Virus record (IMG/VR): IMGVR_UViG_3300032220_001630
Span: 39,136 to 103,135 of that record
Direction: 5' to 3' (one strand)
Length of the DNA stretch: 64,000 nt
Source of the DNA: a virus
The translations under genes and the position numbers were made by a program. This document shows, one piece after another, positions 8,518 through 27,609 of this stretch. Within the stretch, counting starts at the first letter, position 1. Each line of letters opens with the position of its first letter. The notes below the pieces were generated by a model. It did not search any database. It was not told the DNA's origin and worked only from the letters and a program-made list of their open reading frames with translations.

Positions 8518-9141
8518 ATGTGCCCCCAATTCTTAGTTATCGCTTACTATACTGAAAACACTTCCTACCAAGACTTAGCTGAAAAATTAAAAAATTCGCT
8601 TCAAAGGTTTGGTTTACCCCATTACATAGAACCTATCAAAGATCAAGGCTCATGGGAAAAGAATACACACTACAAAGCTTATTTTATTAAGAAATGTCTA
8701 AATGACAGAAATCTAGATCTTCTCTACGTAGATGTAGATGCAGTGTTTAAAGCGTATCCTAGCTTAATCGATGGCTTAGATTGTGACATTGCATACAGAA
8801 CCCAAGATTTTAGATGGAGAAAAGATGAGGCCTTATCTGGTACTATCTTTCTAAAGAACAATGACAAGGTAAAGAGGTTAGTTGATAGGTGGATAGAGAT
8901 TAACGAAAAGACTCCTGCTGAAAGAATGAAACCTGAGACCTGGGAGCAAAAAAATATGCAAACCGCACATAGAGAATTCTCCGATGTGGTTTATTATAAT
9001 CTACCACCAGAATATACTTTTATATTTGATCACTCAAGAACAATGTATCCTAAGGCTTCTCCTGTAATAGAGCATTACCAAGAATCTAGAAATGTACATC
9101 GAAATAATTTACAATCTCGAGGTATAATTAGAAAAAGATAG
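8518..9141 (+). CDS. Glycosyltransferase, nucleotide-diphospho-sugar transferase-like (GT-A)
   Basis: This 207-residue protein has the early beta-strand FLVIAYYT and the metal-binding DxD-type motif LLYVDVDAVF near residue 80. It continues with ALSGTIFLKNN, the usual 'acceptor-side' strand of this transferase group. It should move a sugar from a nucleotide donor; donor and acceptor are unknown. It resembles the downstream genes at 9871 and 10509 in overall plan, suggesting expansion by duplication. It opens the 19-kb glycan cluster and lies one base before the next gene. Confidence 0.65.
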   Translation: MCPQFLVIAYYTENTSYQDLAEKLKNSLQRFGLPHYIEPIKDQGSWEKNTHYKAYFIKKCLNDRNLDLLYVDVDAVFKAYPSLIDGLDCDIAYRTQDFRWRKDEALSGTIFLKNNDKVKRLVDRWIEINEKTPAERMKPETWEQKNMQTAHREFSDVVYYNLPPEYTFIFDHSRTMYPKASPVIEHYQESRNVHRNNLQSRGIIRKR

Positions 9142-9142
9142 A

Positions 9143-9874
9143 ATGCAATTAACCTATGCAGTAGTCAGCTCTAATTCCAACCCTGAGTACTTGGATTTTT
9201 GGCCATATGTGGCAAAAATGTGGCAGAGGATAGGATTAGAGCCTGTCCTTTTTTATATAGATAAAGAAGCTCCTAAGGAAAATGCGGCAGAATATGGTAG
9301 AGTTATCTTTCTAGAATCTATACCCGAATGGGACATAGCCCAACAGGCACAGTGTATTAGATTTTGGGCTGCAAAGGTTTTAGACAATCCTTTTATTATC
9401 TCAGATATTGATATGCTTCCTATTTCAAAGGATTATTACATAAATGAAGCATTGAAAATAGGACACAGAGGTATAATATCCTATAGTTCTGATATTATCA
9501 AATATAGATGGTATAGGACTAATCCTCAGTATCCTATGTGTTATCTTGCCGGAGATCCCTTATCATTCACACAGCTTCTGGATATGAATGATACTGATCA
9601 TAAAAGTTTTCTCAGAAGATTAATGAGAATGAATATCAGATTTGGTACTGATCAAAAATTCTTCTATAACCAATCCCTTCGAAAGCCTGATATTAAAATT
9701 AAGCATTTGGAGAGAGGATGGATAGAAGAAAAATATGCGGTTAAAAGACTTGATAAAGCTATCTGGCCAAAATCTGATTATAATCCAGAGGAATATATAG
9801 ACTGTCATTTACCTAGACCCTTATCATCAAATGCAGTCCTTTGTAAAAAATTATTTAGTAAGCTAGATTTATGA
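9143..9874 (+). CDS. Glycosyltransferase (paralogue of the 19972 gene)
   Basis: The 243-residue protein carries IISDIDMLPIS, a DxD motif, near residue 92, and FGTDQKFFYNQSL further on. Its N-terminus (AVVSSNSNPEYLDFWPYVAKMW) and C-terminus (CHLPRPLSSNAVLCKKLF) line up with those of the gene at 19972, so the two are paralogues about 10 kb apart. A GT-A sugar transferase role is inferred. It overlaps the next gene by four bases (ATGA). Confidence 0.65.
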   Translation: MQLTYAVVSSNSNPEYLDFWPYVAKMWQRIGLEPVLFYIDKEAPKENAAEYGRVIFLESIPEWDIAQQAQCIRFWAAKVLDNPFIISDIDMLPISKDYYINEALKIGHRGIISYSSDIIKYRWYRTNPQYPMCYLAGDPLSFTQLLDMNDTDHKSFLRRLMRMNIRFGTDQKFFYNQSLRKPDIKIKHLERGWIEEKYAVKRLDKAIWPKSDYNPEEYIDCHLPRPLSSNAVLCKKLFSKLDL

Positions 9875-10512
9875 CAAATCTCCCTATATTTATATCCTAT
9901 CATACTGGGGATTCTTATTATTCCTCCTGTGCAGAAAATCTTGTATCTAATATAAGATCTTTAGGCGGTGAGATAATAATGGAGAAAGTTACAGATACTG
10001 GATATTACTGGAAGAATACTTTAAAAAAGCCTGGGTTCATACTTTCTAAAATGGATGAACTAAAAAGAGATCTAATTTGGATAGATGCAGATACCAATAT
10101 TTTTGGATATACAGATTGTATGAAAAAATGGGAATCCGATATACTATTTGCATCCCATACCGGAGACATCCATGGTATAAAGGCATCTCCTATGGGTATA
10201 AAGTACAGTGAAAAAACACTGGGATTCTTTAAAAAATTTTCAGATTTGTGTAATCATAAAATAGAATCCAATGAATTGGATTTAGATCACGACGTTTTAA
10301 AGTATGAATTACTTCCTGATTACAAGGAGAAGATCAGTTTAGAAATTTTAGGTTGTGAAGGAGTACCATCGGATTACACAGACGGGAAATATATAAGAAA
10401 TGGAATTTCCAGAGGAATTAATAAAGGAAGAGAGGTTCATTCTGTCACTTTAAAAAATTCTACTAGAGATCTAAAATTTAGAATGCTATCTTTAAATGAC
10501 TTCACAATATGA
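9871..10512 (+). CDS. Glycosyltransferase, nucleotide-diphospho-sugar transferase-like
   Basis: LIWIDADTNIFG near residue 70 is the DxD-containing strand. IKASPMG and ELDLDHDVLKYELLPDY follow, and both recur in altered form in the next gene (VASPVYF, ELDHDALKHSILPHY). The two are therefore tandem paralogues. At 213 residues it is a single GT-A-like domain. It overlaps its neighbours by four bases on each side, which implies coupled translation. Confidence 0.6.
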   Translation: MTNLPIFISYHTGDSYYSSCAENLVSNIRSLGGEIIMEKVTDTGYYWKNTLKKPGFILSKMDELKRDLIWIDADTNIFGYTDCMKKWESDILFASHTGDIHGIKASPMGIKYSEKTLGFFKKFSDLCNHKIESNELDLDHDVLKYELLPDYKEKISLEILGCEGVPSDYTDGKYIRNGISRGINKGREVHSVTLKNSTRDLKFRMLSLNDFTI

Positions 10513-11324
10513 GCACATACAGAGTAACTAAAAGAGGTGACCTTAGAAGAAGAGTAATTAATAATTCACCACCTTTACAAAATTCAAACAAAAACGAAAT
10601 AGGAAAAGAAGAAAAAATGAACGAAGATTTATTTTATCCGATTAAAAATTCTAGGGAAAGAAAAATAATAGAAAGAAAGGAGAGATTGACAGGTAAAGAT
10701 GATATTGTAATATCTTTTATATCTGATCCCGTAGGATCAAATTTTTACAGCGAAAAATTTAGAACCTTATTAGATAAGGTGGATCAATTAGGACTTGATT
10801 ATATTTTCTGTAAATACGAAAGTGATAGGAATTATTACCAGAACTGCTGTTACAAGCCATATTTTATAAAGACACTTATCAAAGAAACTGGAAAAAACGT
10901 TATATGGGTCGATGGAGATACAATATTAAAGAATGGGTTTTCTTCATTAAACAGAAAGGATAAGGAATTTGATATGGGATTAGTATCATATACAGGATCG
11001 ATGGATTCTTTTGTAGCATCCCCTGTTTATTTCAAAAACACAGAGGTAAGCAATACTATTATAGATCATTGGGAAAACCATTGTACTTCTAGAATAGAAA
11101 ATGGAGAATGTGAGTTAGATCATGATGCTTTAAAGCATTCTATACTTCCACATTATAGAGATAGAGTTAGAATCAATCTCTGTGGGATCGAGCTCCATAA
11201 GGGAGAAAACGTAGAAAATGTAAATTCAGATGTTCCGTATAAAAGAGATATACTTATAAAAATGAGAAGCGTAAATATGAATAGAACATTTCCAGGAAAT
11301 ATAACAAACTATAATATAGTATGA
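10509..11324 (+). CDS. Glycosyltransferase, tandem paralogue of the preceding gene
   Basis: The 271-residue protein has a Lys/Arg-rich, probably disordered leader of about 60 residues. The transferase domain follows, with VIWVDGDTILKNG as the DxD strand and FVASPVYFKN and LDHDALKHSILPHY matching the gene upstream. The extra basic leader is absent from the paralogue. It is embedded in a chain of four-base overlaps. Confidence 0.6.
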   Translation: MSTYRVTKRGDLRRRVINNSPPLQNSNKNEIGKEEKMNEDLFYPIKNSRERKIIERKERLTGKDDIVISFISDPVGSNFYSEKFRTLLDKVDQLGLDYIFCKYESDRNYYQNCCYKPYFIKTLIKETGKNVIWVDGDTILKNGFSSLNRKDKEFDMGLVSYTGSMDSFVASPVYFKNTEVSNTIIDHWENHCTSRIENGECELDHDALKHSILPHYRDRVRINLCGIELHKGENVENVNSDVPYKRDILIKMRSVNMNRTFPGNITNYNIV

Positions 11325-12166
11325 ATAAATTAAAAACTAACTGGGCGCCTTTTCCTCACGAGTATTCGTCTTGTTCAAATTTTAAACCTGAGGACTTCGA
11401 ATGGTCAAGAACTGAGGGAATAGCTAATATAGTTATCGATAATCAGATAATGACTTACAATCCTCCTTTAAACGAGAAAAATTTTGGATGGTTCTGTGAG
11501 TCCAGTGAAATACTTCCATCTTTAAAATCCTATATTAGAAGTAATATGCCGGCTCTAAAGAGGAAGTTTAGAAATATATTTACCTCTGATCGTGAAATAA
11601 TCTCTTGGGATCCAAGCTTTTTTATATTTAACCCTCCAGGATCTAATTTACCATGGACACCTAAGAATAATTATAGGATTCCTGAAAAAACTAAAAAATG
11701 CTCAATGATCTGCAGTCCAAAAAGTATGACATCCGGACATAAATTGAGATTAGAAGTAGCAGAAAAATATAGTGCAAATTTTGATCTGTTTGGCGGAGCA
11801 TCAGGAAGCTCTCGAATAGGATCCGGATCTGGTCCTAATGGAGATTGGTGGAGATCTAAAGAAGAAGCATTAGCTCCATATATGTTTTCTTTAGTTTTTG
11901 AGAATGCTAAAATAGATAAGTATTATACTGAAAAAATAACAGATTGCTTTGCATTGGGGGTAATTCCTATATACTGGGGAACCGATAAGATCTCTGAAGA
12001 TTTCAATATGGGAGGTATTATTAAATGGGAAGATAATTTTGATTTTTCTATGCTTACGTTGGATCTTTACAACTCTAAAATGGAATATGTAAAAGATAAC
12101 ATGGAAAGAGTCAGAAATATGTTATCCGCAGATTCATTAATTTTCAATAAGATAAAAACTTTATGA
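11321..12166 (+). CDS. GT10 (alpha-1,3-fucosyltransferase)-like glycosyltransferase
   Basis: The C-terminal half matches the fucosyltransferase fold: KLRLEVAEKY, FDLFGGASG, then PYMFSLVFENAKIDKYYTEK and DCFALGVIPIYWG. This corresponds to the conserved GT10 block around the FxFENS and YxTEK donor-binding signatures. The N-terminal acceptor half is short. GDP-fucose is the expected donor, and gmd and fcl in the same cluster would supply it. The match is from memory of the family pattern, so another GT-B transferase remains possible. Confidence 0.7.
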   Translation: MNKLKTNWAPFPHEYSSCSNFKPEDFEWSRTEGIANIVIDNQIMTYNPPLNEKNFGWFCESSEILPSLKSYIRSNMPALKRKFRNIFTSDREIISWDPSFFIFNPPGSNLPWTPKNNYRIPEKTKKCSMICSPKSMTSGHKLRLEVAEKYSANFDLFGGASGSSRIGSGSGPNGDWWRSKEEALAPYMFSLVFENAKIDKYYTEKITDCFALGVIPIYWGTDKISEDFNMGGIIKWEDNFDFSMLTLDLYNSKMEYVKDNMERVRNMLSADSLIFNKIKTL

Positions 12167-12885
12167 GTAAAATAAACCTCGTAGCTGCATCCAGACAAAG
12201 ACCAGTAAGGATGTTCAATGTATTAAAAAAATGGCTGAGTAATTCTGCATCACCTTCTGATATAAAGGTAATTATATCTATAGACTCTAGCGATCCTACA
12301 ATTGATAAATATTTTGAATTAATAAATCCATTATCGCTGGAATACAATACAAATATATTGATAATTGTTAACCACAATACATGTACAGTTGAAGCAATAA
12401 ATTCTGTTAAGCCATATTTGGATGGGGATTTAGTTATAGTATTTTCTGATGACACAGATTGCTTTAAAAATTGGGATAAGGAATTGATAGATTTCTCGAC
12501 TAATCTTTCAGGTAAATATGTGATAAAGACCTCTGATGGAATAGGCAAAGACCTTATTACAATGCCAGTATTTTCTAAAGAATATTTAGATGGATTCACT
12601 TACATATACCATCCATCTTACAAGCATATGTTTTGTGATACAGAACTTACGTGTGTAGCTACCGTATTAGGGTGTGTGATTAATGGCGATCAATTTGAAT
12701 TTAAGCATTTACACTACTCCCAATTACATCATGATAAGGATTCTGTTGATGATAAAAATCAATCTACTTTTTATGACGGAATGGACATTTTTAAAGAAAG
12801 ACTTTCTAATAATTTCGATCTAGAACCTTCTGATTTTAAATGTGAAATGCCAAAAGAAATAATAGAATGGATATCTCAAAAATAA
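12163..12885 (+). CDS. Glycosyltransferase, GT2-like
   Basis: The 240-residue protein begins with a GT-A entry strand (INLVAASRQRPVRMFNVLKKW), then IIVNHNTCTVEAINSV and LVIVFSDDTDCF, where D-D-x-D sits in the expected metal-binding position near residue 88. His-rich C-terminal residues (FKHLHYSQLHHDKDS) may complete the site. The role is transfer of an unknown sugar. It overlaps the next gene by 19 bases. Confidence 0.6.
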   Translation: MSKINLVAASRQRPVRMFNVLKKWLSNSASPSDIKVIISIDSSDPTIDKYFELINPLSLEYNTNILIIVNHNTCTVEAINSVKPYLDGDLVIVFSDDTDCFKNWDKELIDFSTNLSGKYVIKTSDGIGKDLITMPVFSKEYLDGFTYIYHPSYKHMFCDTELTCVATVLGCVINGDQFEFKHLHYSQLHHDKDSVDDKNQSTFYDGMDIFKERLSNNFDLEPSDFKCEMPKEIIEWISQK

Positions 12886-13532
12886 ATCTTGATAGAGTAA
12901 CATTGGTGTGTATCGATGGGAGGGAAGAGGATTCTGAAAGAACCTCTAGATATAGAGATATATTTAGATACTCTATGAATCATATTGATTTTAAAAGAGT
13001 AATTTTTTTCAGCCACATAGATTACAAATTCGATGGGGTAGAAACTATTAATATATGGAAACTAGGAAGTACTGGTGAATATTCTAATTTTTGTATGAGA
13101 TTGCTAAATCCTTATATCAATACAGATTACTGTATGATTATGCAGGATGATGGATTTATATTAAATCCTGATCTATGGGATGATGAATTTTTATCTTATG
13201 ATTATATAGGAGCTCCCTGGCCTATAGGATTAGGATCTACTACAGAGGAAACACAGGTAGGAAATGGAGGATTTTGTATAAGAAGTAAAAAATTTCTAGA
13301 GTTTAGTTCTAAGCTTTTCCCTACAATGCAAAACGAGGATAAGTACATATTAGAAACTAACAGAAAAGCAGTTAATCAAGCGAATTTAAAAATAGCACCA
13401 GTCGAGTTAGCTAAAAGATTTTCTGTAGAAATTCCAATAGATGATCAGCATAGTATAAAGAATTGTTTTGGTTTTCATGCAAAACATCTATTGGAAGAAT
13501 CAATTGAATACATAAAAAATAAAAATAAATGA
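12867..13532 (+). CDS. DUF5672-like putative glycosyltransferase
   Basis: The signature is IMQDDGFILNPDLWDDEFL followed by YDYIGAPWP and VGNGGFCIRSKKFL, the core of the DUF5672 family found in sugar clusters. The acidic QDD probably binds metal. C-terminal FGFHAKHLLE is also typical. At 221 residues it is a compact, apparently complete domain. The activity of this family is inferred from fold and context rather than assay. Confidence 0.7.
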   Translation: MDISKINLDRVTLVCIDGREEDSERTSRYRDIFRYSMNHIDFKRVIFFSHIDYKFDGVETINIWKLGSTGEYSNFCMRLLNPYINTDYCMIMQDDGFILNPDLWDDEFLSYDYIGAPWPIGLGSTTEETQVGNGGFCIRSKKFLEFSSKLFPTMQNEDKYILETNRKAVNQANLKIAPVELAKRFSVEIPIDDQHSIKNCFGFHAKHLLEESIEYIKNKNK

Positions 13533-14110
13533 CTAAACAAATCAAAGCCTTTAACACGGATTACAAACTAGCAGAAAGATTTATTGCTTTTAAGAAAAAG
13601 TACAAAATAAAAACTGCAATAGAAACCGGAACATACCATGGAGACACCACATCCTGGCTAGCAGAAAATTTCGATACTGTATATACTGTCGAATACGATA
13701 AAAGATATCTAGACGTGGCTCAGGATCAAATATCCAAGTATACCAATATAAGAAGTTATTTAGGTAGCAGCACGGATTATCTTGGAAAATTCCTTGATGA
13801 ATCAAAGGATAATAATGTTATAGTTTTCCTAGATGCACATTGGTATGCTAATCCAGTATTACAAGAACTGGACAGGATTAGAGAGTCTGGAACAAAACCT
13901 GTTCTTGCTATACACGATTTCAAAGTTCCAGAAAGACCAGATCTTGGTTATGATGAATATCCTAATCAGGGTATAGTCTATGAATGGAATTGGATAAAGG
14001 AAAAAATAGATGCCATTTATGGAATCGATCAGTATGACATAGAATACAATACATACTCTGAACAAAATATGAGAGGCTGTATATTCATATTACCAAAAAA
14101 TAAATTATGA
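13529..14110 (+). CDS. SAM-dependent methyltransferase-like protein
   Basis: TAIETGTYHGDTTSWLAENF near residue 30 is a class I methyltransferase motif I, E-T-G-T-x-x-G-x-T-T. VYTVEYDKRYLDVA (acidic residue after beta-2) and VIVFLDAHWYANP (motif IV region, D-A-H-W) follow. Methylation of a sugar or of another small molecule in the glycan pathway is likely. It overlaps both neighbours by four bases. Confidence 0.65.
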   Translation: MTKQIKAFNTDYKLAERFIAFKKKYKIKTAIETGTYHGDTTSWLAENFDTVYTVEYDKRYLDVAQDQISKYTNIRSYLGSSTDYLGKFLDESKDNNVIVFLDAHWYANPVLQELDRIRESGTKPVLAIHDFKVPERPDLGYDEYPNQGIVYEWNWIKEKIDAIYGIDQYDIEYNTYSEQNMRGCIFILPKNKL

Positions 14111-14796
14111 TAAAATTAAACGACTATAGAAAGAGTGTCTACTCTCAAACAGGTGAAGACGGAATACTAGAAAAACTTTTCCAAACTCTAGATATAAAAC
14201 AAGGCCAATTTTGTGAATTTGGTGCATCTGATGGTATGTCATATTGTAATACCCGAAAATTGAGAGAGGAAGGATGGGGAGGAGTTTTAATCGAAGGTGA
14301 TCCATTATATGCAGAGGGAATAAAAGAAAACCTTAAGGACTATAAAAATATTGAGATCCTAGATAGCTTTATTAGCTGTGAACCAGGAAGTACATTGGAT
14401 GAGATTCTAAAACCTACGAAATTAAAAAAAGACTTTGATTTTATTTCAATAGATATAGACGGGAACGATCTTTGGGTCTGGGAATCTTTAAAAAATTATT
14501 CTCCTAAGGTAATAATGGTAGAATATAATTCTAATTATCCTTCTACTGATAGCTTGTCTATAAAATATGATAAGGATCATAGACATCAGTTAGATGCTTA
14601 TTATAGCGCCACAGCTGGTGCATATAAGAAATTAGCTGATAAGAAGGGATATAAATTAGTAGGATTTACTGAGGGATTAAACCTAGTATTTTGTAAGAAT
14701 GAATTAGCTTCCAATTTTTACGAATATAAACTAGAGGAAATACCAGTAATGAGAGTGTGGCCTATAAAAGAAGGGAGAGAGCTTTTAATATATTAA
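14107..14796 (+). CDS. FkbM-family-like methyltransferase
   Basis: The N-terminus carries YSQTGEDGILEKLF, a phrase common in this methyltransferase group. QFCEFGASDGMSYCNT follows as motif I, VLIEGDP as the acidic strand and FDFISIDIDGNDLWVWESL as motif IV. One of three FkbM-like genes in the cluster (with 17928 and 20802). It probably O-methylates sugars, the known role of several FkbM relatives. Confidence 0.7.
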   Translation: MIKLNDYRKSVYSQTGEDGILEKLFQTLDIKQGQFCEFGASDGMSYCNTRKLREEGWGGVLIEGDPLYAEGIKENLKDYKNIEILDSFISCEPGSTLDEILKPTKLKKDFDFISIDIDGNDLWVWESLKNYSPKVIMVEYNSNYPSTDSLSIKYDKDHRHQLDAYYSATAGAYKKLADKKGYKLVGFTEGLNLVFCKNELASNFYEYKLEEIPVMRVWPIKEGRELLIY

Positions 14797-14797
14797 A

Positions 14798-15469
14798 ATG
14801 AAAATAATATCTTTCTCACTTTGGGGAGAACACGAGAGATACTTTATAGGTGCTTTTAGAAATTGCGAGTTAGCTTTACAGTGGTATCCGGATTGGACAT
14901 GCTTTTTTTATGTAAGATCTGATTCTAGTATAAAGCATATGGATAAATTGAGAGCTTATCCGAATGCTAGAGTTATTGAAATAGAATCACCCGATGAAAA
15001 AAGAGGACTTTTCTGGAGGTTTATTCCTGCTTTTGATAAATCGATAGATGTTACAATTGTAAGAGATTGCGATTCACGTCTCTCTGAGAGAGAATTATTA
15101 GCGGTTAATCAATGGCTCGAAAGTGACAAGGCATTTCACATAATGAGAGATCATCCTTATCATAGTACCGAAATACTTGGCGGTATGTGGGGAGTTAAGA
15201 ATAAAATGATAGATCTAGGAGATCCTCTTAATCTTGAAATCATTAGTTCTTACAAAGATGAATACCAAGAGGACCAAAGATATCTTAGAGAAAAGATATG
15301 GCCAAGAGTCAAGGATAATTGCATGATACATGACGAATTTTTCGGTGGATTAAAATTTCCTAAGGAAAGGTATGATTTTGACGATTTTGTTGGTCAGCAA
15401 TATAACGATAATGATCAGCCGGTAAAGGAAAATTCAGATATTCTTAAAAAATACTTGCAAGGATCATGA
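14798..15469 (+). CDS. Glycosyltransferase-like protein with DCDSR motif
   Basis: The protein begins KIISFSLWGEHERYFIGAFRN, typical of a small sugar-transferase group. VTIVRDCDSRLSERE near residue 88 gives the D-x-D. HIMRDHPYHSTEILGGMWG forms the next conserved block. The length (223 residues) fits one GT-A-like domain. The acceptor is unknown. The gene lies one base after the previous stop and overlaps the next by four. Confidence 0.65.
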   Translation: MKIISFSLWGEHERYFIGAFRNCELALQWYPDWTCFFYVRSDSSIKHMDKLRAYPNARVIEIESPDEKRGLFWRFIPAFDKSIDVTIVRDCDSRLSERELLAVNQWLESDKAFHIMRDHPYHSTEILGGMWGVKNKMIDLGDPLNLEIISSYKDEYQEDQRYLREKIWPRVKDNCMIHDEFFGGLKFPKERYDFDDFVGQQYNDNDQPVKENSDILKKYLQGS

Positions 15470-16302
15470 GGATTATTATTATACAAGAAGCAGGAAGGCA
15501 TGACGAGAATAGAAATTTTAGAGAGTGCTTAAGCTTACAGAGAGCATTTCTATATAACGGTCATCAGTGCGACGTTTGGGGATTGGGTCATTCCAATTAT
15601 AGTCAAATCCCAGATTGGGATTCCTATGATCTTATAATGAATATAGAAAATTACGATTCTGTCGGATGGGTTCCTAATCTATCTTCATTTAATAAACCCA
15701 TAAAATTACTTTGGAGTATAGATGCTCACTGTAGGGGAGAAGAGATATACGAAAATACCTTTTCTTCTGGAAGATATAATTTCTTGCTTCACTCCACTAA
15801 AGATTTTGTCAAAAATAATTATCATATATGGTTTCCTAATTGTTTTGATGACGACCTAGTTAAAAATATGCAGGTTGATAAAAAACATTTCATAGGGTTT
15901 TGTGGTAATTATGTTAACAGAAAAGATCTTATAGATACAATTACTTCCGAATTCGGTATGAAGCAGGACATATTTGTAATAGGAGAATCTATGGTTAAAT
16001 CTATCAATGAATATAGAATACACTTTAACAAGAACATGTTAAACGATATAAACTATAGAAACTTCGAAACAATAGGTACAGGTACAGTTCTACTCACGAG
16101 CAATAATCCAAATTATGAAAGTCTTGGGTTTATCGATGGTGAAAATTGTTTAATATATAATGATATTGGGGACATTAGAAGAATATTGATGGAGGTAAAA
16201 CAAAATCCTGATATTTTGGAAAAAATAGGGGATTCCGGATATGGACTTTCTAAAAATCATACCTATAAAGTAAGGGTTAATGATTTATTGAAAAAAATTT
16301 AG
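15466..16302 (+). CDS. Glycosyltransferase, CgeB/GT-B-like
   Basis: The first half has a Rossmann-type strand with an EAG motif, then LLWSIDAHCRG. The second half contains IGFCGNYVNRKDLIDTI and YRNFETIGTGTVLLTSNNP followed by FIDGENCLIYNDIGDI. This is the usual C-terminal donor domain of CgeB-like GT-B enzymes. At 278 residues it is compact. It would transfer an unknown nucleotide sugar in the cytoplasm. Confidence 0.65.
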   Translation: MRIIIIQEAGRHDENRNFRECLSLQRAFLYNGHQCDVWGLGHSNYSQIPDWDSYDLIMNIENYDSVGWVPNLSSFNKPIKLLWSIDAHCRGEEIYENTFSSGRYNFLLHSTKDFVKNNYHIWFPNCFDDDLVKNMQVDKKHFIGFCGNYVNRKDLIDTITSEFGMKQDIFVIGESMVKSINEYRIHFNKNMLNDINYRNFETIGTGTVLLTSNNPNYESLGFIDGENCLIYNDIGDIRRILMEVKQNPDILEKIGDSGYGLSKNHTYKVRVNDLLKKI

Positions 16303-19413: not shown

Positions 19414-19979
19414 TGACTATTTCTATACACCAGCCTAATTTTTTCCCCTGGTATCCTTTTTTTCAGAAAGTCGAAAAATCCCAAAAATTTATTCTTTTGA
19501 ATCAGTCACAATTTCAGAAGAACAATCTGCAGAATAGATTTAGTATGGACGATAAATGGTATACTATTTCTGTTAATAGAGGACTAGATCCAATATTTAC
19601 AAAAAAATATTTATCCCCAACCGATGATTGGGAAAGAATAAAAAAATCACTTCCCGAATACAAAAAGATTTTAGAAAAATTTGATCCTTTCATAGGTCAT
19701 GATTTAAAAGACACCAATACTAATATAATCAAAAAAATATGTGATATTATTGAAGTCGATACCGAAATATTATCCGATTACCCTACTGAATTAAAAGCAA
19801 GCGAAAGAATTTTGGACATATGCTTAAAATTCGAAGCTTCTACTTATATTTCTGGCATTTCTGGAAAAAAATACTTAGACCTAGAGATTTTCAAAAAAAA
19901 TGGTATAGAGGTATTTTTTCAAAAAGAGGAAGAAATGATCAAGGAACCTATTTTAAAAATACTAAAAAAATATGTTTAA
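19413..19979 (+). CDS. WbqC-like family protein
   Basis: The N-terminus ISIHQPNFFPWYPFFQKV with a later NNLQNRF is the H-Q-P-N/F-P-W signature of WbqC proteins. FEASTYISGISGKKYLD corresponds to the conserved S-G-x-x-G-x-x-Y block. Members sit in O-antigen clusters, where their reaction is not well defined. At 188 residues it is near full length. Start and stop overlap neighbours by a few bases. Confidence 0.8.
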   Translation: MTISIHQPNFFPWYPFFQKVEKSQKFILLNQSQFQKNNLQNRFSMDDKWYTISVNRGLDPIFTKKYLSPTDDWERIKKSLPEYKKILEKFDPFIGHDLKDTNTNIIKKICDIIEVDTEILSDYPTELKASERILDICLKFEASTYISGISGKKYLDLEIFKKNGIEVFFQKEEEMIKEPILKILKKYV

Positions 19980-20799
19980 TAGAGTTATTGTTAGCTCAGA
20001 CGATTCTGATTTTAAAAATTTCTGGCCTATAGTGGTTAAGTCTTGGAATAAATATTTTCCGGAAGTAAAGGTGTGTTTAGCATTTGTAACGGACAGAAAA
20101 GAAAATGATGAGATCGTAAAAAGGCTTAAAAAATATGGTGAGGTTTATTTATTCCCCGTTCAACCTAATATACCTACTCCCAACCAAGCAAAAATGTACA
20201 GACATATATTAGCTGGACAATTTGGTGATGATGTGTGTATGATAGAGGATATAGATACTATTCCACTACAATCTGAATTTGTACACAGAATCCTATCTCA
20301 GAGGGATTTTGGAAAAATGCTCAGGGTTGGCTCTGAGATCTACAACGGGACACTTGACGAGGGTAAATTTCCTACGAGTAACCTTACAGGGGAATCATAT
20401 CTCTTCAAGGAATTAATAAATCCAGATAATCTAAACTACAAATCTCTATTTGATACGTGGTGTAATATTAGATATTATGACCACAAAGAATCTGTTAATA
20501 ACCATCCGGATTTATCTGGATTAGATGGATTCTCTGATGAATCTTTGATGAGAGTACTAATGAATAGATTTTCCCCAACAAAAGATAGAATTAATGAAAT
20601 AAAAAGGGATGTTGATATACGGGACAATTGGATAGACAGATCTTGGTGGAATATAGATAAAAATAAATTAATTAATAACGAATATGTGATCTGTAACTTT
20701 TTAAGACCTTTTGCTGAAAATATTCATCTATGCAAACCGATAATTGAATATATATTCGACACTCAAAATATCCGGTTAGACGAAATATTAATAGATTAA
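19972..20799 (+). CDS. Glycosyltransferase (paralogue of the 9143 gene)
   Basis: MIEDIDTIPLQ near residue 90 gives the D-x-D. The ends match the gene at 9143: VIVSSDDSDFKNFWPIVVKSW at the start (same fold position) and CNFLRPFAENIHLCKPI at the end. A loop of about 30 residues is longer here. GT-A transferase with unknown donor. Confidence 0.6.
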   Translation: MFNRVIVSSDDSDFKNFWPIVVKSWNKYFPEVKVCLAFVTDRKENDEIVKRLKKYGEVYLFPVQPNIPTPNQAKMYRHILAGQFGDDVCMIEDIDTIPLQSEFVHRILSQRDFGKMLRVGSEIYNGTLDEGKFPTSNLTGESYLFKELINPDNLNYKSLFDTWCNIRYYDHKESVNNHPDLSGLDGFSDESLMRVLMNRFSPTKDRINEIKRDVDIRDNWIDRSWWNIDKNKLINNEYVICNFLRPFAENIHLCKPIIEYIFDTQNIRLDEILID

Positions 20800-20801
20800 A
20801 A

Positions 20802-21440
20802 ATGATTACAACCATTTATGAGCATTCTGTTGATTTAGAAATTCTAGAAAAAGGTGGGTGGGTTTTAGATCTGGGATGTGGTGTAGACTTCCTATTTTCA
20901 AAAGCCATGCTAGAAAAAGGAATGAAAGTTTTAGCAGTAGATCCAAATCCTAAAATTTCACAAATTCCAGATCATCCTAATTTCTATTTTGTAAACAAGG
21001 CAATAACCACAGAAGAATCTAAAGAGCCTTTGGAATTCACCATATATAATGACTCTGACGCATTTAGTTCAGTTAATACAATGCATGATGTTTCCTTCGT
21101 TGAAAAACAGGGGAATATCATGATTGAAACTGTGACCCTCAATGATCTTAAAAACGAATTTTCAATTAATTCTATAGAGCTGATTAAAATTGACATCGAA
21201 GGGGCAGAATACGGTCTATTAGAATCTTTACATTATCCAATTTCTAGACAAATAAGTATCGAGTATCACGATTTTAGAGGAATGAATCCATATTTTCCAA
21301 ATAATCAATTATACCATGATAAATTGAAAATAAAACTTGGCTTTTACAACTTTGTTAAGTACAGCATAGAACAACACAAGGGAATTTCAGGAGAACAGGG
21401 ACTTAATTATTGGGATTGTCTTTTAGTTCAAAAAAATTAG
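20802..21440 (+). CDS. FkbM-family methyltransferase
   Basis: GGWVLDLGCGVDFLFSKAML gives motif I, VLAVDPNP the acidic strand, and IELIKIDIEGAEYGLLESL the FkbM-type motif IV. The 212-residue length is normal for the family. It is the third FkbM-like gene of the cluster and probably methylates a sugar hydroxyl. Confidence 0.75.
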   Translation: MITTIYEHSVDLEILEKGGWVLDLGCGVDFLFSKAMLEKGMKVLAVDPNPKISQIPDHPNFYFVNKAITTEESKEPLEFTIYNDSDAFSSVNTMHDVSFVEKQGNIMIETVTLNDLKNEFSINSIELIKIDIEGAEYGLLESLHYPISRQISIEYHDFRGMNPYFPNNQLYHDKLKIKLGFYNFVKYSIEQHKGISGEQGLNYWDCLLVQKN

Positions 21441-21444
21441 ATCT

Positions 21445-22116
21445 ATGGTTATAGGAAATGGCCTACTGGCAAGAAAGTTCCAAGGAATTGACAATGTTAT
21501 TGTTTTTGCTTCCGGAGTTTCAGACTCTTCAGAAACCGACCAGAAAGAATTTGAAAGAGAAAAAAAACTCCTTTTAAAGGTAATAGAATCGAACTCTTGT
21601 GTTCCTCTTGTTTATTTCAGTTCTGTTTCAATATTAACCCAATCTTCACCATATATCTTACACAAGAAAGAAATGGAACAAATCATACAAGGATTAGGGA
21701 TTAATTATTGGATATTTAGACTTCCCCAAATTGTTGGCTTTGGCGGATGCAAAAGAAATCTTATAAATTTTATTCTTGGTAAGATAATGTCAGGAGATGA
21801 AATACAAATTTATGACACAAAAAGAAGTATATTGGACGTTGATGACGCTAGGAGTATTGTTGAGTATATCATACAAAACTTTGAACCTAATAAAATTTTA
21901 AATGTTGGCGGGGTGCAAGCTTTGAAGGTTCATGATATTGTTGACATTTTAGAATCTTTAACTGGAAATAAACCCATAGTAAACAAAATCAAGAAAGAAT
22001 GTTTAGATCAATCTACTGTTAATTCGGAAGAAGTTGAACAAGCAATCAGCTTTCTGGGAATAAAAACTGAATTTTACATTAAAAAAACTTTAGCTAAATA
22101 TGTTGCACATTACTGA
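21445..22116 (+). CDS. Short SDR-type nucleotide-sugar reductase/epimerase-like protein
   Basis: It begins VIGNGLLARKF, a reduced form of the NAD(P)-binding glycine motif. VYFSSVSIL supplies the catalytic Ser, SPYILHKKEME the Y-x-x-x-K, and ILNVGGVQALKVHDIV the substrate domain. At 223 residues it is shorter than RfbD-type reductases (about 300), so the fold is trimmed. A dTDP-sugar reductase or epimerase role is possible but the substrate is uncertain. Confidence 0.6.
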   Translation: MVIGNGLLARKFQGIDNVIVFASGVSDSSETDQKEFEREKKLLLKVIESNSCVPLVYFSSVSILTQSSPYILHKKEMEQIIQGLGINYWIFRLPQIVGFGGCKRNLINFILGKIMSGDEIQIYDTKRSILDVDDARSIVEYIIQNFEPNKILNVGGVQALKVHDIVDILESLTGNKPIVNKIKKECLDQSTVNSEEVEQAISFLGIKTEFYIKKTLAKYVAHY

Positions 22117-23017
22117 AGAAACACACCACGACCTATATTATAATGTAGAAAAATGTGTGGAGTATTGTAGACAAATTAAGACATCTGTTCGCAAGGAAAT
22201 AACTGAATATCACATGTTTTGGAATGTCGGTTTACCATTCGAGAGAAAACAAATTTTATCTATAAAATCATATCTTTGTACTCAAGATCTTAAGAATACA
22301 CGATTAAACATATGGTCAAATGTAGACCTAAGGTCGAATCATTTTTTGTTGCCTTTTCTCCCTTATATAAATTTTAAAATATGGGATCCTATCAAAGAAG
22401 CACGAGGAACTGAATTGGAAGGGAGGTTAGATGTTCTTCTAGTAAAAGACGACTTAAACTATTCTGCGGGGGATCTTTTCAGAATTTTGGTTTTGCATAA
22501 TTATGGAGGATTATACGTAGATTTTGATGTCGTTTTTTTAAGGGATTTCTCCCCTATTCTTGATCAAGAATTTATGTATAAATGGTCCTTCCAAGAAGAA
22601 ATGATAAATGGTGCTGTGATGAGGATGTTTAAAGGTAGTAAACTTTCTAAGGATCTTTTAAAAGAAATAGCAAAAGGTGAAGTTTATTCTGGAACTGTTA
22701 ATTGGTCAACAGTTTTATATCAAAAAGTTAGATCTTATAATAAGGATTGGACAGTTTTCCCTTGTGCGTTCTTTAATACTGAGTGGCAAATTAAATTAAC
22801 AGAGGAACAAAAAAACAACGACCCCGAATATAGGGAATTAGTTAATTTTATTCTTTATCCTTTCAAAAAAACAGAATGGAGTTCAAAATTGATGTATGAG
22901 GGGGTATTCAGTTGGCATTGGCATAACAACTGGAATGCAGAAATTGAAATAGGAAGTAAGTGGCAAATTTTAGAAGATAAATTTAACAATGAAATCAAAA
23001 CAAAATTTAAAATTTGA
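22100..23017 (+). CDS. GT32-like glycosyltransferase (DXD sugar-binding)
   Basis: GDLFRILVLHNYGGLYVDFD (near residues 121-140) is the classic block of sugar-transferases with the DXD motif: Y-G-G-x-Y-x-D-x-D. FSWHWHNNW near the C-terminus is the usual His-rich end. The 305-residue length fits. Mannose, glucose or galactose donors are used by relatives; the donor here is unknown. It overlaps the preceding gene by 17 bases and the next by 29. Confidence 0.75.
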   Translation: MLHITEETHHDLYYNVEKCVEYCRQIKTSVRKEITEYHMFWNVGLPFERKQILSIKSYLCTQDLKNTRLNIWSNVDLRSNHFLLPFLPYINFKIWDPIKEARGTELEGRLDVLLVKDDLNYSAGDLFRILVLHNYGGLYVDFDVVFLRDFSPILDQEFMYKWSFQEEMINGAVMRMFKGSKLSKDLLKEIAKGEVYSGTVNWSTVLYQKVRSYNKDWTVFPCAFFNTEWQIKLTEEQKNNDPEYRELVNFILYPFKKTEWSSKLMYEGVFSWHWHNNWNAEIEIGSKWQILEDKFNNEIKTKFKI

Positions 23018-23570
23018 TATCGATAAAAAGTATTTAACAATGTTTACGTCAGATAAAGAGGTAAACCAGCTTGGATGGGGATCGATACATTCTCAAAATA
23101 GTAGATTTGAAATACTCCTACAGATTAGAGGATACAACCAAAACGATACGGTATTAGATGTTGGGTGTGGATACGGGGATCTTTGTAAATATATTCAAAA
23201 TTATACTGGTATAGATCTGAGAGCATCTGCAATAGACAAGGCTAAAAATAAATACCCAGGGAGGGATTTTAAAAATTGTGAAATATATTCAATCGACGAG
23301 AAATATGACTGGGTTTTTGCATCGGGAATATTTTGTTTTGATTATGAATGGGAAAAAAATACTAATGATTGCATAAAAAAAATGTATGAAATTTCCAAAA
23401 AAGGATTAGCCTTTAATTTCCTTTCTGACCTAAGCGAGGGCAATAGAGAAATCGGAATGAAATATACCAAAATAGAAGAGGCTTTACCTATTGTTTCATC
23501 ATTATGTAAGAATTTTACATTTAGACACGACTATCTAAAAAACGATTTTACTGTCTATATGTACAAATAA
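22989..23570 (+). CDS. Class I SAM-dependent methyltransferase
   Basis: TVLDVGCGYGDLCKYI near residue 53 is a textbook motif I, and YTGIDLRASAI gives the acidic residue after beta-2. WVFASGIFCF is the motif IV strand. The 193-residue chain ends FTVYMYK. Probable small-molecule or sugar methyltransferase. A Met at 23041 is an alternative start that would keep all motifs. Confidence 0.75.
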   Translation: MKSKQNLKFDIDKKYLTMFTSDKEVNQLGWGSIHSQNSRFEILLQIRGYNQNDTVLDVGCGYGDLCKYIQNYTGIDLRASAIDKAKNKYPGRDFKNCEIYSIDEKYDWVFASGIFCFDYEWEKNTNDCIKKMYEISKKGLAFNFLSDLSEGNREIGMKYTKIEEALPIVSSLCKNFTFRHDYLKNDFTVYMYK

Positions 23571-23614
23571 TTCACGTTATAGGAGGAACTATCTTTAATA
23601 CATTTTATATAATT

Positions 23615-23622: not shown

Positions 23623-23627
23623 TCGTT

Positions 23628-24554
23628 ATGATTCTTTGTATTTTTGGATCCTCTGGATTAGTAGGAAGCAATCTTTATAATAAATGTTTAGAAAAATATT
23701 CGAATTACAGAATACTTGCTCCTAAAAGATCTGATGTGGATCTTTCTAATAGGGAAGAAACCTTATCGTATCTCCATTTTAATAAGCCCGACATAGTTTT
23801 TCTATGTGCTGCTAAAGTTGGAGGAATAAAGGCTAATAGCGATTTTAAAGCTGATTTTATAACAGAGAATATAAAAATACAATCCAATGTTATAGAGGGA
23901 TGTTTTCTAGCTGGTATAAAGAAGCTAGTATTTTTAGGATCTTCTTGCATATATCCTAAGAATTGTCCTCAACCCATCAAGGAAGAATACCTCATGACTG
24001 GACCATTAGAACCTACTAACGATGCTTATGCTATTGCAAAGATATCTGGGATTAAGATGTGTCAATCCTACAGAAGTCAATATGGATGTGATTTTATATC
24101 CGTAATGCCGTCAAATCTTTATGGTCCTGGTGATAATTTCGATCTTAATTCGAGTCATGTATTGCCTGCTCTAATTAGAAAATTCCACGAGGCTAAAATA
24201 AAAAATAAGCCATACGTTGAGGTGTGGGGATCTGGTACACCCATGAGAGAATTTTTATATGTTGAGGATCTTGCGGATGCTTTAATTTTTCTGTCCGAAA
24301 ATTATTCAGACGAGAAAATAATAAATGTTGGATCTGGAATGGACCTATCAATTAAACTTTTGTCCCATTATATACAAAAAGAAGTCGGTTATGAGGGTGA
24401 TGTAGTTTTTAATAATTCTTATCCTGACGGAACAATGAGAAAGGTTATGGACTCATCCAGAATATTCGAAATGGGATGGAGTCCTAAAATTTCATTGGAG
24501 GATGGGATTAAAAAGACATATTCCTACTATAAAGAAACATATGAACAACAATAA
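23628..24554 (+). CDS. fcl: GDP-L-fucose synthase
   Basis: [10 protein letters not shown] at residues 7-16 binds [22 protein letters not shown] and [15 protein letters not shown] are diagnostic blocks with the Ser, Tyr and Lys of the active site, and [10 protein letters not shown] follows. The enzyme converts GDP-4-keto-6-deoxymannose to GDP-L-fucose by epimerisation and reduction. At 308 residues it is full length. It directly precedes gmd, giving both steps from GDP-mannose. Confidence 0.93.
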
Positions 24555-25569
24555 GAAAGCTATTATAACCGGGGTTAATGGGCAGGACGGAAGCTACCTT
24601 GCTGAACTTCTTCTGAATAAAGGATATGAGGTTCATGGTACAATAAGAAGATCCTCGTCTTTTAATACCTGGAGAATAGATCATTTAAGAAAAGATAGTA
24701 ATTTTCACTGGCATTATGCTGATATAACAGACCCAGTAAGTATATCTAACCTAGTATCTTCTCTAAAACCTGACGAATTCTATAACCTTGCAGCGCAAAG
24801 CCATGTAAAGATTTCTTTTGAAATCCCATACTATACCGGACAAGTTGATGCTATAGGGACTTTAAATGTATTAGAGGCTATCAGATCACACTCGCCTAAT
24901 ACTAAATTGTATCAGGCATCAACCTCTGAATTGTACGGTATGGTTCAAGAGATACCGCAAAATGAAAAAACACCTTTCTATCCAAGATCCCCCTATGGAG
25001 TTGCAAAGCTCTATGGGTTTTGGATAATTAAAAACTACAGAGAAGCCTACAATTTATTTGCATGTAACGGTATACTATTTAATCACACTTCTCCAAGAAG
25101 GGGTGAAAATTTCGTCGAGAAAAAAATAGTTGATGCTCTTGCTGATATTATACACAATCAAAAGATCACATCTTTTTCATTAGGTAACTTGAACTCACAA
25201 AGGGATATAGGTCATGCTAGGGAATATGTTGAAGGTATGTGGAGAATGCTCCAACAGAAAACTCCTGATGATTTTGTTCTTGCAACAGGAACAACGTATA
25301 CTATTAGATCAATTGTTGAGATGACAGCTTCTATTTTAGGAGTTCATTTAATATGGGAGGGTGAAGGAATAAATGAAGTTGGTAAAAACAAAGAAACAGG
25401 AGAAATACTGGTAACTATTGATTCTAAATATTTTAGACCTTCTGAGGTTGATCTTTTAATAGGAAATCCTGAGAAGGCTGAATCTGTATTAGGATGGAAA
25501 GCTAAAATGGATCTTACTGAAATATTAAAGGAAATGGTTGAATCTAAAATTAATGGAAATGTACGCTGA
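24541..25569 (+). CDS. gmd: GDP-mannose 4,6-dehydratase
   Basis: [17 protein letters not shown] (near residues 9-25) is the Gmd NADP-binding motif, then [27 protein letters not shown] and ASTSELYG with the catalytic Thr/Ser and Glu. [10 protein letters not shown] gives Tyr and Lys. I place the start at ATG 24541, overlapping fcl by 14 bases, which gives 342 residues, the family's usual size. It turns GDP-mannose into GDP-4-keto-6-deoxymannose for Fcl. Confidence 0.93.
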
Positions 25570-26137
25570 TTTATTATTCAGGGAGATAGAATATCTTAGT
25601 AGGATACCTGTTCATAAAATATCTTTTCTTGTAGATCTTGTACATGGGGGAATAGATGAAGACAGTAGGATAATCTGTTCAGGTATGGGAAAGGCAGGAC
25701 AGATTGCACATACCTTTTCTACAACTTTAAGCTCTACTGGAGTCCCCTCATATTTCCTTCATCCTTCTGAAGCACAACACGGGGATCTTGGTATTTTAGG
25801 TAAGAATGATATTCTTATGCTATTTTCAAATTCTGGAAAAACTAGGGAGGTTTTAGAATTGATTGATCTATCTAAGAGATTGCATCCTGATTTAAGAATA
25901 CTTTGTATAGTTGGAGAATCTAATAAGGAGCTGGAAGAAAAAACCTCTCTTGTTTTAGATTTTGGTCCTGTCAAAGAAATATGTCCATTAGGATTAACAC
26001 CTACTACATCAACAACCTGTATGTCCGTTATATGCGACCTTATAGTTGTTGGATTAATGAAGAAGAATAATTTTACTAAAGAAGAATACGCAAAAAGACA
26101 TCATGGAGGATATCTTGGAGAAAAGTCAAAATCCTAA
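25553..26137 (+). CDS. kdsD: D-arabinose 5-phosphate isomerase, SIS domain only
   Basis: [20 protein letters not shown] and [15 protein letters not shown] match the KdsD/KpsF sugar-isomerase domain. [19 protein letters not shown] and [14 protein letters not shown] complete the active-site loops. The enzyme isomerises ribulose 5-phosphate to arabinose 5-phosphate, the first Kdo step. The protein lacks the C-terminal CBS pair of E. coli KdsD (about 195 versus 328 residues). I choose ATG 25553, overlapping gmd by 17 bases, over an upstream TTG. Confidence 0.85.
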
Positions 26138-26906
26138 ATTTTTAATATCTGGACCTTGTGTAATAGAGAATCTAGATCTCTGTGTACATATAGCTAAGGA
26201 GGTAAAAAGGGTTGGTGAATTATACGGCTTTAAACCGATCTTTAAAGCTAGTTACGATAAGGCTAATAGGACATCAGGTGATTCGTTTAGAGGAGTTGGA
26301 ATTAAAGAAGGATTATACATATTGGATAAGGTAAGGTTTATTGTAGATATTCCTTTTATAACTGACGTTCATGATGTTGAACAAGTTAAGATTGTTGCTC
26401 CTTTTGCAGACTATTTACAGATCCCTGCTTTTTTATCTAGACAGACAGATCTCGTTGAAGCTTGTGCAAAAACAGGATTGCCAACCTTAGTGAAAAAAGG
26501 ACAGTTTCTTTCACCTGAAGCATGCTCTTATATAGAAAGAAAATTCTATAAAGCTGGCGGATCACAGATGATGATATGTGAGAGAGGAAATTCTTTTGGT
26601 TATAATGATCTAATAGTAGATGTTACATCTCTTTCTAGATTAAAAAAATCGTGTGAAAATTCTTCCGTTATTATGGACTGTACACACAGTTTACAAAAGC
26701 CTAATGGAATTTACGGTAAAACAGAAGGGAGAGGGGACATGGTAGAAGAGATGGTTAGATTTGCATCTGTAATGGGTGCTGATGGCTTATTCATAGAAAC
26801 ACATCCAGATCCTAGTAAATCACCTTCTGACTCCGAAAATATATTGGAACTTTCAATGCTAGACAAGGTATTAAATATATCAAGAAAAATATACGATTGT
26901 GAGTAA
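26103..26906 (+). CDS. kdsA: 3-deoxy-8-phosphooctulonate (Kdo-8-P) synthase
   Basis: FLISGPCVIEN, FKASYDKANR, TDVHDVEQV, GSQMMICERGNSFGYNDL and DCTHSLQKPNG are the KdsA signatures that bind phosphoenolpyruvate and arabinose 5-phosphate. The late block (IETHPDPSKSPSDSEN) is also conserved. At 267 residues it is complete. It uses the product of the preceding kdsD gene, whose end it overlaps by 35 bases. Kdo-8-P phosphatase (kdsC) and kdsB are not in this window, so the host would have to finish activation. Confidence 0.93.
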   Translation: MEDILEKSQNPKFLISGPCVIENLDLCVHIAKEVKRVGELYGFKPIFKASYDKANRTSGDSFRGVGIKEGLYILDKVRFIVDIPFITDVHDVEQVKIVAPFADYLQIPAFLSRQTDLVEACAKTGLPTLVKKGQFLSPEACSYIERKFYKAGGSQMMICERGNSFGYNDLIVDVTSLSRLKKSCENSSVIMDCTHSLQKPNGIYGKTEGRGDMVEEMVRFASVMGADGLFIETHPDPSKSPSDSENILELSMLDKVLNISRKIYDCE

Positions 26907-27609
26907 AGTGGATATTGTAATAGTCAGTTATGCTAAAGACGATTACTGTAAGAATTTAACAGAAAATTGTATAAACAGTCTTTTTCATTCAGAAGAGGAC
27001 AAAGATCTATTTAATGTTATTGTAGTAGAATCAGAGCCCGGAGTTAAATGGGAAGAAAAATTTACACAAAATGTAACTACATATGAAGCACCACTTCCTT
27101 ACGGATACCATAAATTTTTAAACTTCGGTAGAAAAAAAGGAAATTCTGAATGGGTAGCATTATGTAATAATGATTTACAGTTTACAGTAAATTGGTTTTC
27201 TAAAATACTTAAGTCAAATAAAGAGAATCCTGATGTGATTTCATTTTCTCCGATTTGTCCAATGACCCAAACCCTGTATGGTATTAATCCACATACGGGT
27301 ATTCATCTGGGTTACGAAATTAGAAAACAAATTTCAGGGTGGTGCATAGTACACAAGAGAGAGATCTACGAAAAAATCGGGGATTTAGACGAGAATTTTT
27401 ATCATTGGTTTTGTGACAATGATTATGCTATGACTCTGCAAGAAGAAGGTTTAAAGCATGCTCTTGTTACAGACTCTATAGTTATACATCACGAAAAGAC
27501 CATAGGGAAAACTACCGAAAGGGTAGTTGAAACTAATGATGAGATGTATAGGTTAACCATGGGATCTCAATCGATATTTCAAAAAAAATGGGAAAAAATT
27601 AGAATATGA
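26899..27609 (+). CDS. GT2-family glycosyltransferase (GTG start)
   Basis: GTG at 26899 is the start; it overlaps kdsA by eight bases. VDIVIVSYAKDDYCKNLTEN is the GT2 entry, WVALCNNDLQFTVNWF the metal-binding N-D region, and GWCIVHKREIYEKIGDLDE with FCDNDYAMTLQ the late acceptor block. At 236 residues it is a complete domain. It is the last gene of the cluster. Confidence 0.75.
   Translation: MSKVDIVIVSYAKDDYCKNLTENCINSLFHSEEDKDLFNVIVVESEPGVKWEEKFTQNVTTYEAPLPYGYHKFLNFGRKKGNSEWVALCNNDLQFTVNWFSKILKSNKENPDVISFSPICPMTQTLYGINPHTGIHLGYEIRKQISGWCIVHKREIYEKIGDLDENFYHWFCDNDYAMTLQEEGLKHALVTDSIVIHHEKTIGKTTERVVETNDEMYRLTMGSQSIFQKKWEKIRI

Follow-up and report, generated by a model that had tools for sequence, protein, structure and literature searches.

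The window analysed here is a 64,000-nucleotide stretch of viral DNA (positions 39136-103135 of IMG/VR record IMGVR_UViG_3300032220_001630), within which we investigated a block of predicted glycan genes at 8518-27609, hereafter the island. Because the record (103,135 bp) is a fragment, absences are provisional; all contigs used in this work are metagenomic and partial, and each absence holds for the records searched. The island comprises 26 open reading frames (ORFs; g01-g26) of 188-355 aa, all on the + strand and together spanning 99.6% of the block. Exact 4-base ATGA overlaps are found at 8 of 25 junctions, and the single gap larger than 6 bp, of 57 bp, lies before g22. Most of the 26 proteins match glycan-related Pfam or NCBIfam families, a few only below the curated cut-off; a Pfam search of the ORFs returned no accepted family for g01-g04, g10 and g17. 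The genes, with glycosyltransferase (GT) families where assigned, are as follows, where Kdo is 3-deoxy-D-manno-octulosonic acid, GDP is guanosine diphosphate and NDP is nucleoside diphosphate.

8518..9141, +, g01: GT-A glycosyltransferase, conserved left anchor; family in 13/13 islands; invariant DxD; AlphaFold model
9143..9874, +, g02: probable GT-A glycosyltransferase, near-clade left anchor; in 9/9 near-clade islands, 67-76% identical; invariant DxD
9871..10512, +, g03: g01 paralogue (same cluster c0, alignment A1)
10509..11324, +, g04: g01 paralogue (same cluster c0, alignment A1)
11321..12166, +, g05: GT10 fucosyltransferase; PF00852, 29.5 bits (cut-off 23.9); in 11/13 islands
12163..12885, +, g06: GT2-like; PF00535, E 0.017, below cut-off
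12867..13532, +, g07: DUF5672, putative transferase; PF18922, E 1.7e-19
13529..14110, +, g08: methyltransferase-like; PF13578, E 0.0026, below cut-off
14107..14796, +, g09: FkbM methyltransferase; PF05050; left breakpoint of the G001 exchange at ~14230 (alignment across the junction)
14798..15469, +, g10: probable glycosyltransferase by position and size; no Pfam match; G009 homologue 78%
15466..16302, +, g11: GT1-like transferase; PF13524, E 9.8e-14
16304..17254, +, g12: NDP-sugar epimerase/dehydratase, TviC/GalE-like; PF01370, E 1e-57; best NCBIfam, NF011728, below its cut-off
17241..17921, +, g13: PIG-L deacetylase; PF02585, E 3.7e-15
17928..18599, +, g14: FkbM methyltransferase; PF05050
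18559..19413, +, g15: GSCFA protein; PF08885, E 3.6e-40
19413..19979, +, g16: WbqC; PF08889, E 4.5e-27
19972..20799, +, g17: distant g02 paralogue (same cluster c3, alignment A2)
20802..21440, +, g18: FkbM methyltransferase; PF05050, E 2.3e-13
21445..22116, +, g19: truncated epimerase-like protein; partial PF01370, E 1.2e-6
22100..23017, +, g20: GT32 DXD transferase; PF04488, E 2.5e-7
22989..23570, +, g21: methyltransferase; PF13847/PF08241
23628..24554, +, g22: GDP-L-fucose synthase (Fcl), right anchor; NF047922, 427.7 bits (cut-off 500); PDB fucose synthases, E 2e-91
24502..25569, +, g23: GDP-mannose 4,6-dehydratase (Gmd), right anchor; TIGR01472, 495 (cut-off 415)
25538..26137, +, g24: SIS-only KdsD/KpsF-type arabinose-5-phosphate isomerase; TIGR00393, 150 bits (cut-off 203.7); 3etn, E 2.8e-59
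26103..26906, +, g25: KdsA (Kdo-8-phosphate synthase); NF003543, 311 (cut-off 242); PDB Kdo8P synthases, E 7e-61
26899..27609, +, g26: GT2 transferase, near-clade right anchor; PF00535, E 7.9e-7; in 9/9 near-clade islands

Structural phage genes lie on the same contig, and the island, with its contiguous transferases and NDP-sugar enzymes, is a polysaccharide cluster encoded in a phage genome. The capsid gene (contig 34156-35943) matches LR756500 (43%), Prevotella Lak phages (38%), Tenacibaculum PTm1/PTm5 and others, and LR756500 and Lak are the closest named relatives by this search. A tail protein (32140-33768) matches LR756500, Flavobacterium MaF61, Tenacibaculum and Lak phages. Cyanophages were absent from the organism tallies of both sets of matches, which contained Lak, Tenacibaculum, Flavobacterium and uncultured huge phages instead. 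The PDB entry nearest to g24 is 3etn, a phosphosugar isomerase with an annotated part in capsule formation, which we take to be a Bacteroides protein. Because of these capsid and tail matches and the affinity of g24, the host is likely a member of the Bacteroidota and not a cyanobacterium, and the phage appears to be of a Bacteroidota jumbo or Lak-related kind. The moraphages, large aquatic Lak-related phages with mostly Bacteroidota hosts, four core transferase families and genomes of 200-307 kb (PMC12619734), have traits that fit the present phage, compared by description only; records of its relatives extend to 219 and 245 kb.

Gmd and Fcl are predicted to convert GDP-mannose to GDP-fucose, and GT10 or GT11 enzymes to transfer the fucose; the family profile of g05 matches the fucosyltransferase structures 5zoi/2nzw (E ~5e-13). 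KdsD and KdsA would lead to Kdo-8-phosphate. The cytidine monophosphate (CMP)-Kdo synthetase-type family PF02348 was not found in the window contig, and therefore the host would have to complete the Kdo branch. Phage transferases can also glycosylate DNA bases to evade restriction, as the moraphage paper mentions for the core transferases (PMC12619734). We consider such a role very unlikely here, as 26 genes that include a deacetylase, WbqC, GSCFA and Kdo enzymes far exceed what base glucosylation needs and no base-hydroxymethylating enzyme was seen; PF00303 (thymidylate synthase/deoxycytidine monophosphate hydroxymethylase family) passed its cut-off in 1 of 19 records (the window and 18 related ones), and was absent from the window contig.

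We next compared the locus among relatives. With a tail protein (29684-31531) as query, 46 related loci were recovered, and both flanks were available for 12 records, giving 13 islands with that of the window. In 13/13, a glycan island of 9.5-19.4 kb and 13-26 genes occupies the same site, between these flanking genes:

7646..8356, -, fL_7646: conserved left-flank gene, function unassigned; adjoins the island on the left in 13/13
27799..28660, +, fR_27799 and fR_28019: conserved right-flank genes adjoining the island; fR_28019 is also kept in the island-less outgroup LR756500

In the 9 near-clade islands all genes lie on one strand, while in the 4 distant ones (loci L060-L063, in G013, G014, G015 and G017) the right end holds two short minus-strand genes in place of the KdsD-KdsA-g26 of the near clade. 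The 231 island genes of the 13 islands group into 73 families, of which 32 have a single member. Seven families occur in at least 9 of the 13: the g01 type (13), the Fcl-type epimerase cluster (13), Gmd (12), GT10 (11), the g02 type (9), KdsD (9) and the GT2 transferase g26 (9). Judged by identity, Fcl is present in 12/13 (G004 has a 31% match only) and Gmd in 12/13 (none in G011), with both in 11. The two islands without GT10, G007 and G020, carry a GT11-type alpha-1,2-fucosyltransferase (PF01531, E 2e-34 in G020), so that a fucosyltransferase is present in every one of the 13. Distant-clade islands retain g01, GT10, Fcl and Gmd but not KdsD, KdsA or g26. The islands thus share a layout with a conserved left end (g01 always, g02 and GT10 in most islands), a right end of Fcl/Gmd (with KdsD/KdsA in the near clade) and a hypervariable middle. 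The right-end anchor genes were also present in 21/21 partial loci with at least 6 kb of upstream sequence. In the huge phage LR756500 the same tail genes are syntenic, with fibre-like genes and no glycan genes upstream, and no island protein was found around the homologous tail gene in MaF61, PTm1 and one Lak phage. Separately, in G006 and G011 (L053 and L058) Fcl has an N-terminal extension of ~250 residues (ORFs of 556-567 aa), a possible fusion with another protein.

This distribution bears on whether the cluster is recent host-derived cargo of no conserved role. Bacterial-type enzymes in a single-strand block, with middle genes that differ among relatives, would suit such an origin, but we hold it to be highly improbable given that 13/13 islands share one site, conserved ends and the leader, and that the island and the structural genes are close in codon usage (r 0.98; GC content at third codon positions 0.253 for the island and 0.219 for structural genes), which argues for long residence. 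A recent bacterial donor was likewise rejected, since bacterial Gmd matches are at best 59-62% identical and come from mixed phyla, compared to mostly 68-89% among phage relatives. The island is flanked by two perfect copies of CTATAACTTATA, which were discarded as candidate attachment sites, the motif being at chance frequency once mismatches were allowed. The initial annotation had described a one-strand, near-gapless cluster of 26 glycan genes with four-base overlaps, which the ORF and family searches bore out, placed between phage head and tail genes. This placement holds at a distance, with the capsid gene ~11.7 kb before the island and tail/baseplate genes from 29684, while the immediate neighbours are neither head nor tail genes. 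Its word "inserted" is misleading for an island fixed in its lineage with a codon usage like that of structural genes, and the marine T4-like phages to which it ascribed comparable sets are of the wrong lineage for this Lak-related phage, being comparable in gene content alone.

Two separate comparisons indicate that the middle is replaced through the conserved ends. G006 and G007 are 94% identical to the left of the island and 97-98% identical to its right, over 18 kb, and yet blastn aligns nothing in the interval that runs from where g02 ends to where Fcl begins (6.4 kb vs 9.5 kb). Conversely, the window and G001 are ~99.5% identical across a 9.6-kb middle, from about 14.2 kb to 23.88 kb, and 65-75% identical elsewhere. 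The left switch is gradual within g08/g09 and the right one is abrupt inside Fcl, at 23881 in g22. Within the compared stretch, differences between window and G001 fall at third codon positions in 135 of 201 cases (a count that takes in the diverged part of g08), an excess expected of real divergence. After the right switch, G001 is without the remainder of Fcl and most of Gmd. With conserved ends and an exchangeable middle, the island appears, from these alignments, to be a switching locus of the capsule type. GSCFA, used as a probe for further phages with this cassette, found none among named phages and only G001 among viral contigs.

The variable genes of the relatives' islands include pyruvyl-, carbamoyl-, hexapeptide acyl- and DegT aminotransferases as well as PhyH. 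Since PhyH, carbamoyltransferase and aminotransferase resemble secondary-metabolite enzymes, an idea also raised for a second cyanophage cluster (PMC7824862), the product might be a sugar metabolite that is small and diffusible, or a mixture of virion and host products, instead of a single surface glycan. This is unlikely in our view, as the window island has glycan-type enzymes only and fucosyltransferases are kept in all islands. The diversity of the islands implies selection on an exposed sugar.

Upstream of g01 lie two noncoding features:

8385..8393, +: promoter-like [ATG]ATATATA[AG] site, 125 nt upstream of g01 and upstream of the leader
8440..8495, +: leader element GAAACT..CTAAAATTTTTAC-NNN-GTAAATCCCGG..TATGAAT, ~55 bp, noncoding and conserved, in which CTATGAAT follows GTAAATCCCGG

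In 13/13 islands, ~25 bp separate the leader from the original start of g01. In two scans of 2.9 million viral contigs its pattern was found in 17 contigs, in 17/17 between fL_7646 and g01 and nowhere else. The promoter-like motif has 24 sites in the contig, 14 of them intergenic although only 2.85% of the DNA is noncoding (a ~20-fold concentration, p ~ 3e-16); a comparable AT-rich site occurs in all 13 relatives, and the motif also occurs 4-17 nt before genes of the structural region, for example at 43746, 46114 and 47313. Together, leader and promoter-like site suggest a 5'-untranslated leader and a control shared with virion genes. Whether as RNA regulator or operator, the leader could have a regulatory function. 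No Rfam family, wcaG RNA included, reached its gathering score in the leader region (8340-8540), and RNAalifold gave no consensus fold for the leader; a known riboswitch or structured RNA was accordingly set aside. Two other promoter types were also discarded: the T4-type late promoter TATAAATA has few sites, mostly not ahead of genes, and the Bacteroidota -7/-33 promoter TTTG..TANNTTTG occurs at chance frequency. In G003 (L051) and G009 (L056), an HNH endonuclease gene has entered g01 behind the leader, just past the original start, suggestive of homing into the most conserved island gene.

A PDB sequence search gave no match for the g01 and g02 families, and we therefore turned to predicted folds. 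The AlphaFold model of g01 (predicted local distance difference test score, pLDDT, 84) shows a GT-A fold. Its best PDB match is the capsid-glycan transferase domain of Paramecium bursaria chlorella virus 1 (PBCV-1; 2p6w/2p72/2p73, E 1.4e-7, template modelling score 0.67, probability 1.00), and its best matches among viral models are giant-virus transferases (Fadolivirus, Tetraselmis virus; 25-29% identity). The model of g02 (pLDDT 68) matches GT-A and nucleotidyltransferase folds weakly and is too weak to call the protein more than probably GT-A-like.

None of the 26 proteins has a membrane-helix-like hydrophobic stretch (the highest Kyte-Doolittle 19-residue mean being 1.56), and the flippase, polymerase and initiating phosphoglycosyltransferase families looked for (PF01943, PF04932, PF02397 and PF00953) were absent from the same 19 records, all fragments, in which positive controls were matched. 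The initial annotation was thus right that no flippase, polymerase or exporter is visible, and by its gene content the island does not resemble a Wzx/Wzy-dependent O-antigen or capsule locus. It does resemble PBCV-1, as far as genes can tell, in combining its own GDP-fucose pathway with soluble transferases. Because membrane enzymes, initiating transferase, flippase and polymerase were lacking in the 19 records, we prefer cytosolic virion glycosylation. The same annotation suggested that the glycan may be attached within the cell, with virion proteins as an example; the idea is sound, and the g01 fold resembles that of the PBCV-1 enzyme. A phage that lacks Wzx/Wzy could nevertheless make a host-surface product.

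We propose that, in a lineage of Bacteroidota jumbo phages, the island serves as a permanent glycan locus able to switch type. The whole island would be transcribed as one unit from the promoter-like site ~125 nt upstream of g01. Gmd and Fcl would turn host GDP-mannose into GDP-L-fucose, KdsD and KdsA would boost Kdo-8-phosphate, and soluble transferases would assemble a short fucosylated, methylated or deacetylated glycan in the cytoplasm, the likeliest acceptors being, as for PBCV-1, virion proteins synthesised alongside it. Through homologous recombination within g02/g09 at the left end and Fcl at the right, both ends being conserved, the variable middle would be swapped and the glycan type changed, as in bacterial capsule and O-antigen loci. 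We give an even chance to a fucosylated glycan of switching type that is made in the cytosol and is probably destined for the virion. The fuller picture, of phages with their own serotypes in which a dedicated locus builds a fucosylated virion coat glycan and cassette recombination under the leader switches its type, is put forward tentatively, a little short of that.

Several observations weigh against this proposal. The placing of the glycan on virion or host is a prediction from gene content, and late expression is predicted from position and a motif. KdsD/KdsA indicate Kdo, whose usual sink is lipid A-core, and neither a phage Kdo transferase family nor a CMP-Kdo synthetase was found in the window contig. 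For the g01 fold, GT6/GT8-type enzymes score nearly as well as the PBCV-1 match, and similarity of a modelled fold does not define the acceptor. Finally, the exchange evidence comes from metagenomic contigs, and the truncated Fcl of G001 may be a true deletion, a recombination defect or an assembly fault.

The strongest rival is modification of host lipid A-core. Here the product would be a host-surface glycan, made by soluble transferases that extend or replace lipid A-core on the cytoplasmic face and exported by host MsbA or Wzx, and the altered surface would block competing phages or grazers while the infection lasts; type switching would track host or competitor type. We regard this rival as possible, if on balance doubtful. 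A core-type product needs no phage exporter, and KdsD with KdsA, which would raise the inner-core sugar Kdo, fit a lipid A-core/host MsbA route. WbqC and GSCFA proteins, typical of surface polysaccharide loci, point the same way. A host-surface role is also the published reading of cyanophage lipopolysaccharide (LPS) clusters (PMC7824862, PMC2984593, PMC9602691). However, KdsD/KdsA are missing from the distant clade, in which Fcl, Gmd and GT10 occur, no Kdo-transferase family was seen in the island, the locus is tied to the structural module, and the fold of g01 is nearest to a virion-glycan enzyme.

Phage glycan clusters are already known, chiefly from cyanophages, and are usually read as changing the host surface (PMC2984593, PMC7824862, PMC9602691). 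P-SSM2 has 24 LPS/polysaccharide genes in two clusters (PMC2984593), the main one of 15 genes (PMC7824862); S-SCSM1 has Gmd, Fcl and fucosyltransferases (PMC9602691), and S-SCSM2R has GT10, GT11 and, separately, KdsA/KdsB. Like the island, these T4-like cyanophage clusters combine phage-borne transferases with NDP-sugar enzymes, but they belong to another phage lineage and host phylum, the P-SSM2 genes are split in two where ours form one contiguous 26-gene block, and the S-SCSM2R cluster is preceded by wcaG RNA instead of our unrelated leader. By its capsid and tail matches, the carrier does not appear to be a T4-like cyanophage, nor the island one of their LPS clusters. The cyanomyovirus hyperplastic region g15-g18 similarly places 4-14 variable host-like genes in the structural module (PMC2984593), with predicted roles in carbon and photosynthesis metabolism, unlike the dedicated glycan locus with conserved ends found in the present lineage. 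Bacterial capsule and O-antigen loci share with it conserved end genes, a variable middle and wholesale recombinational replacement (capsular switching in bacteria: PMC4943193, PMC4453057), whereas the island is phage-borne and without Wzx, Wzy or initiating transferase. PBCV-1 encodes Gmd, fucose synthase and its own transferases, and bears on its capsid protein an O-methylated glycan centred on fucose (PMC4691112). PBCV-1 and other giant viruses share with the island virus-encoded Gmd, fucose synthase and transferases and methylated sugars, predicted for the island, together with the fold of g01, but PBCV-1 is a eukaryotic virus with a proven virion glycan, which here is inferred. To our knowledge, no contiguous switching locus is known in these viruses.

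As far as we searched, what appears new is a glycan locus in a Lak-related Bacteroidota lineage, at a fixed site, with a conserved fucose core and leader and with direct evidence of cassette switching. Large glycan clusters of jumbo phages have so far been described mainly as a cyanophage trait, with a host-surface role assigned without test; the present locus places a fixed, fucose-centred one that switches type by cassette exchange in an unrelated lineage. If the glycan is on the virion, phage particles would have switchable coats, affecting adsorption, persistence and recognition. Variable islands were observed in moraphages, their content left unexplored and no glycan locus described (PMC12619734); should the contig belong to this group, the locus bears on the island content that the moraphage paper poses as a question.

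To the left of the island are a RimK-like ATP-grasp gene, a gene for an Asp/Glu-rich protein and unknowns, and to its right unknowns and a NUDIX gene ahead of the tail/baseplate genes. Asparagine-synthase-like and RimK-like ATP-grasp genes occupy 1952-4828; the RimK-like gene is kept in relatives (54-89%) and might modify virion or host proteins. Thr-rich collagen-like Gly-X-Y proteins are encoded near the capsid genes in 5 of 7 genomes read there (L004:1086-4649, with similar ones in L112, L114, L115 and L116), and are suggestive as possible glycan acceptors. Between tail and baseplate genes, 33779-36436 encodes a protein with ~23-residue repeats of the YPVPSGDQYANVPGSDLGLPDR type. Left of the window, two adjacent divergent T4-type portal genes (L003:13355-14944 and L003:14948-16621, contig coordinates; both PF07230, E ~1e-60) form a tandem pair, which is unusual, a single portal gene being the rule.

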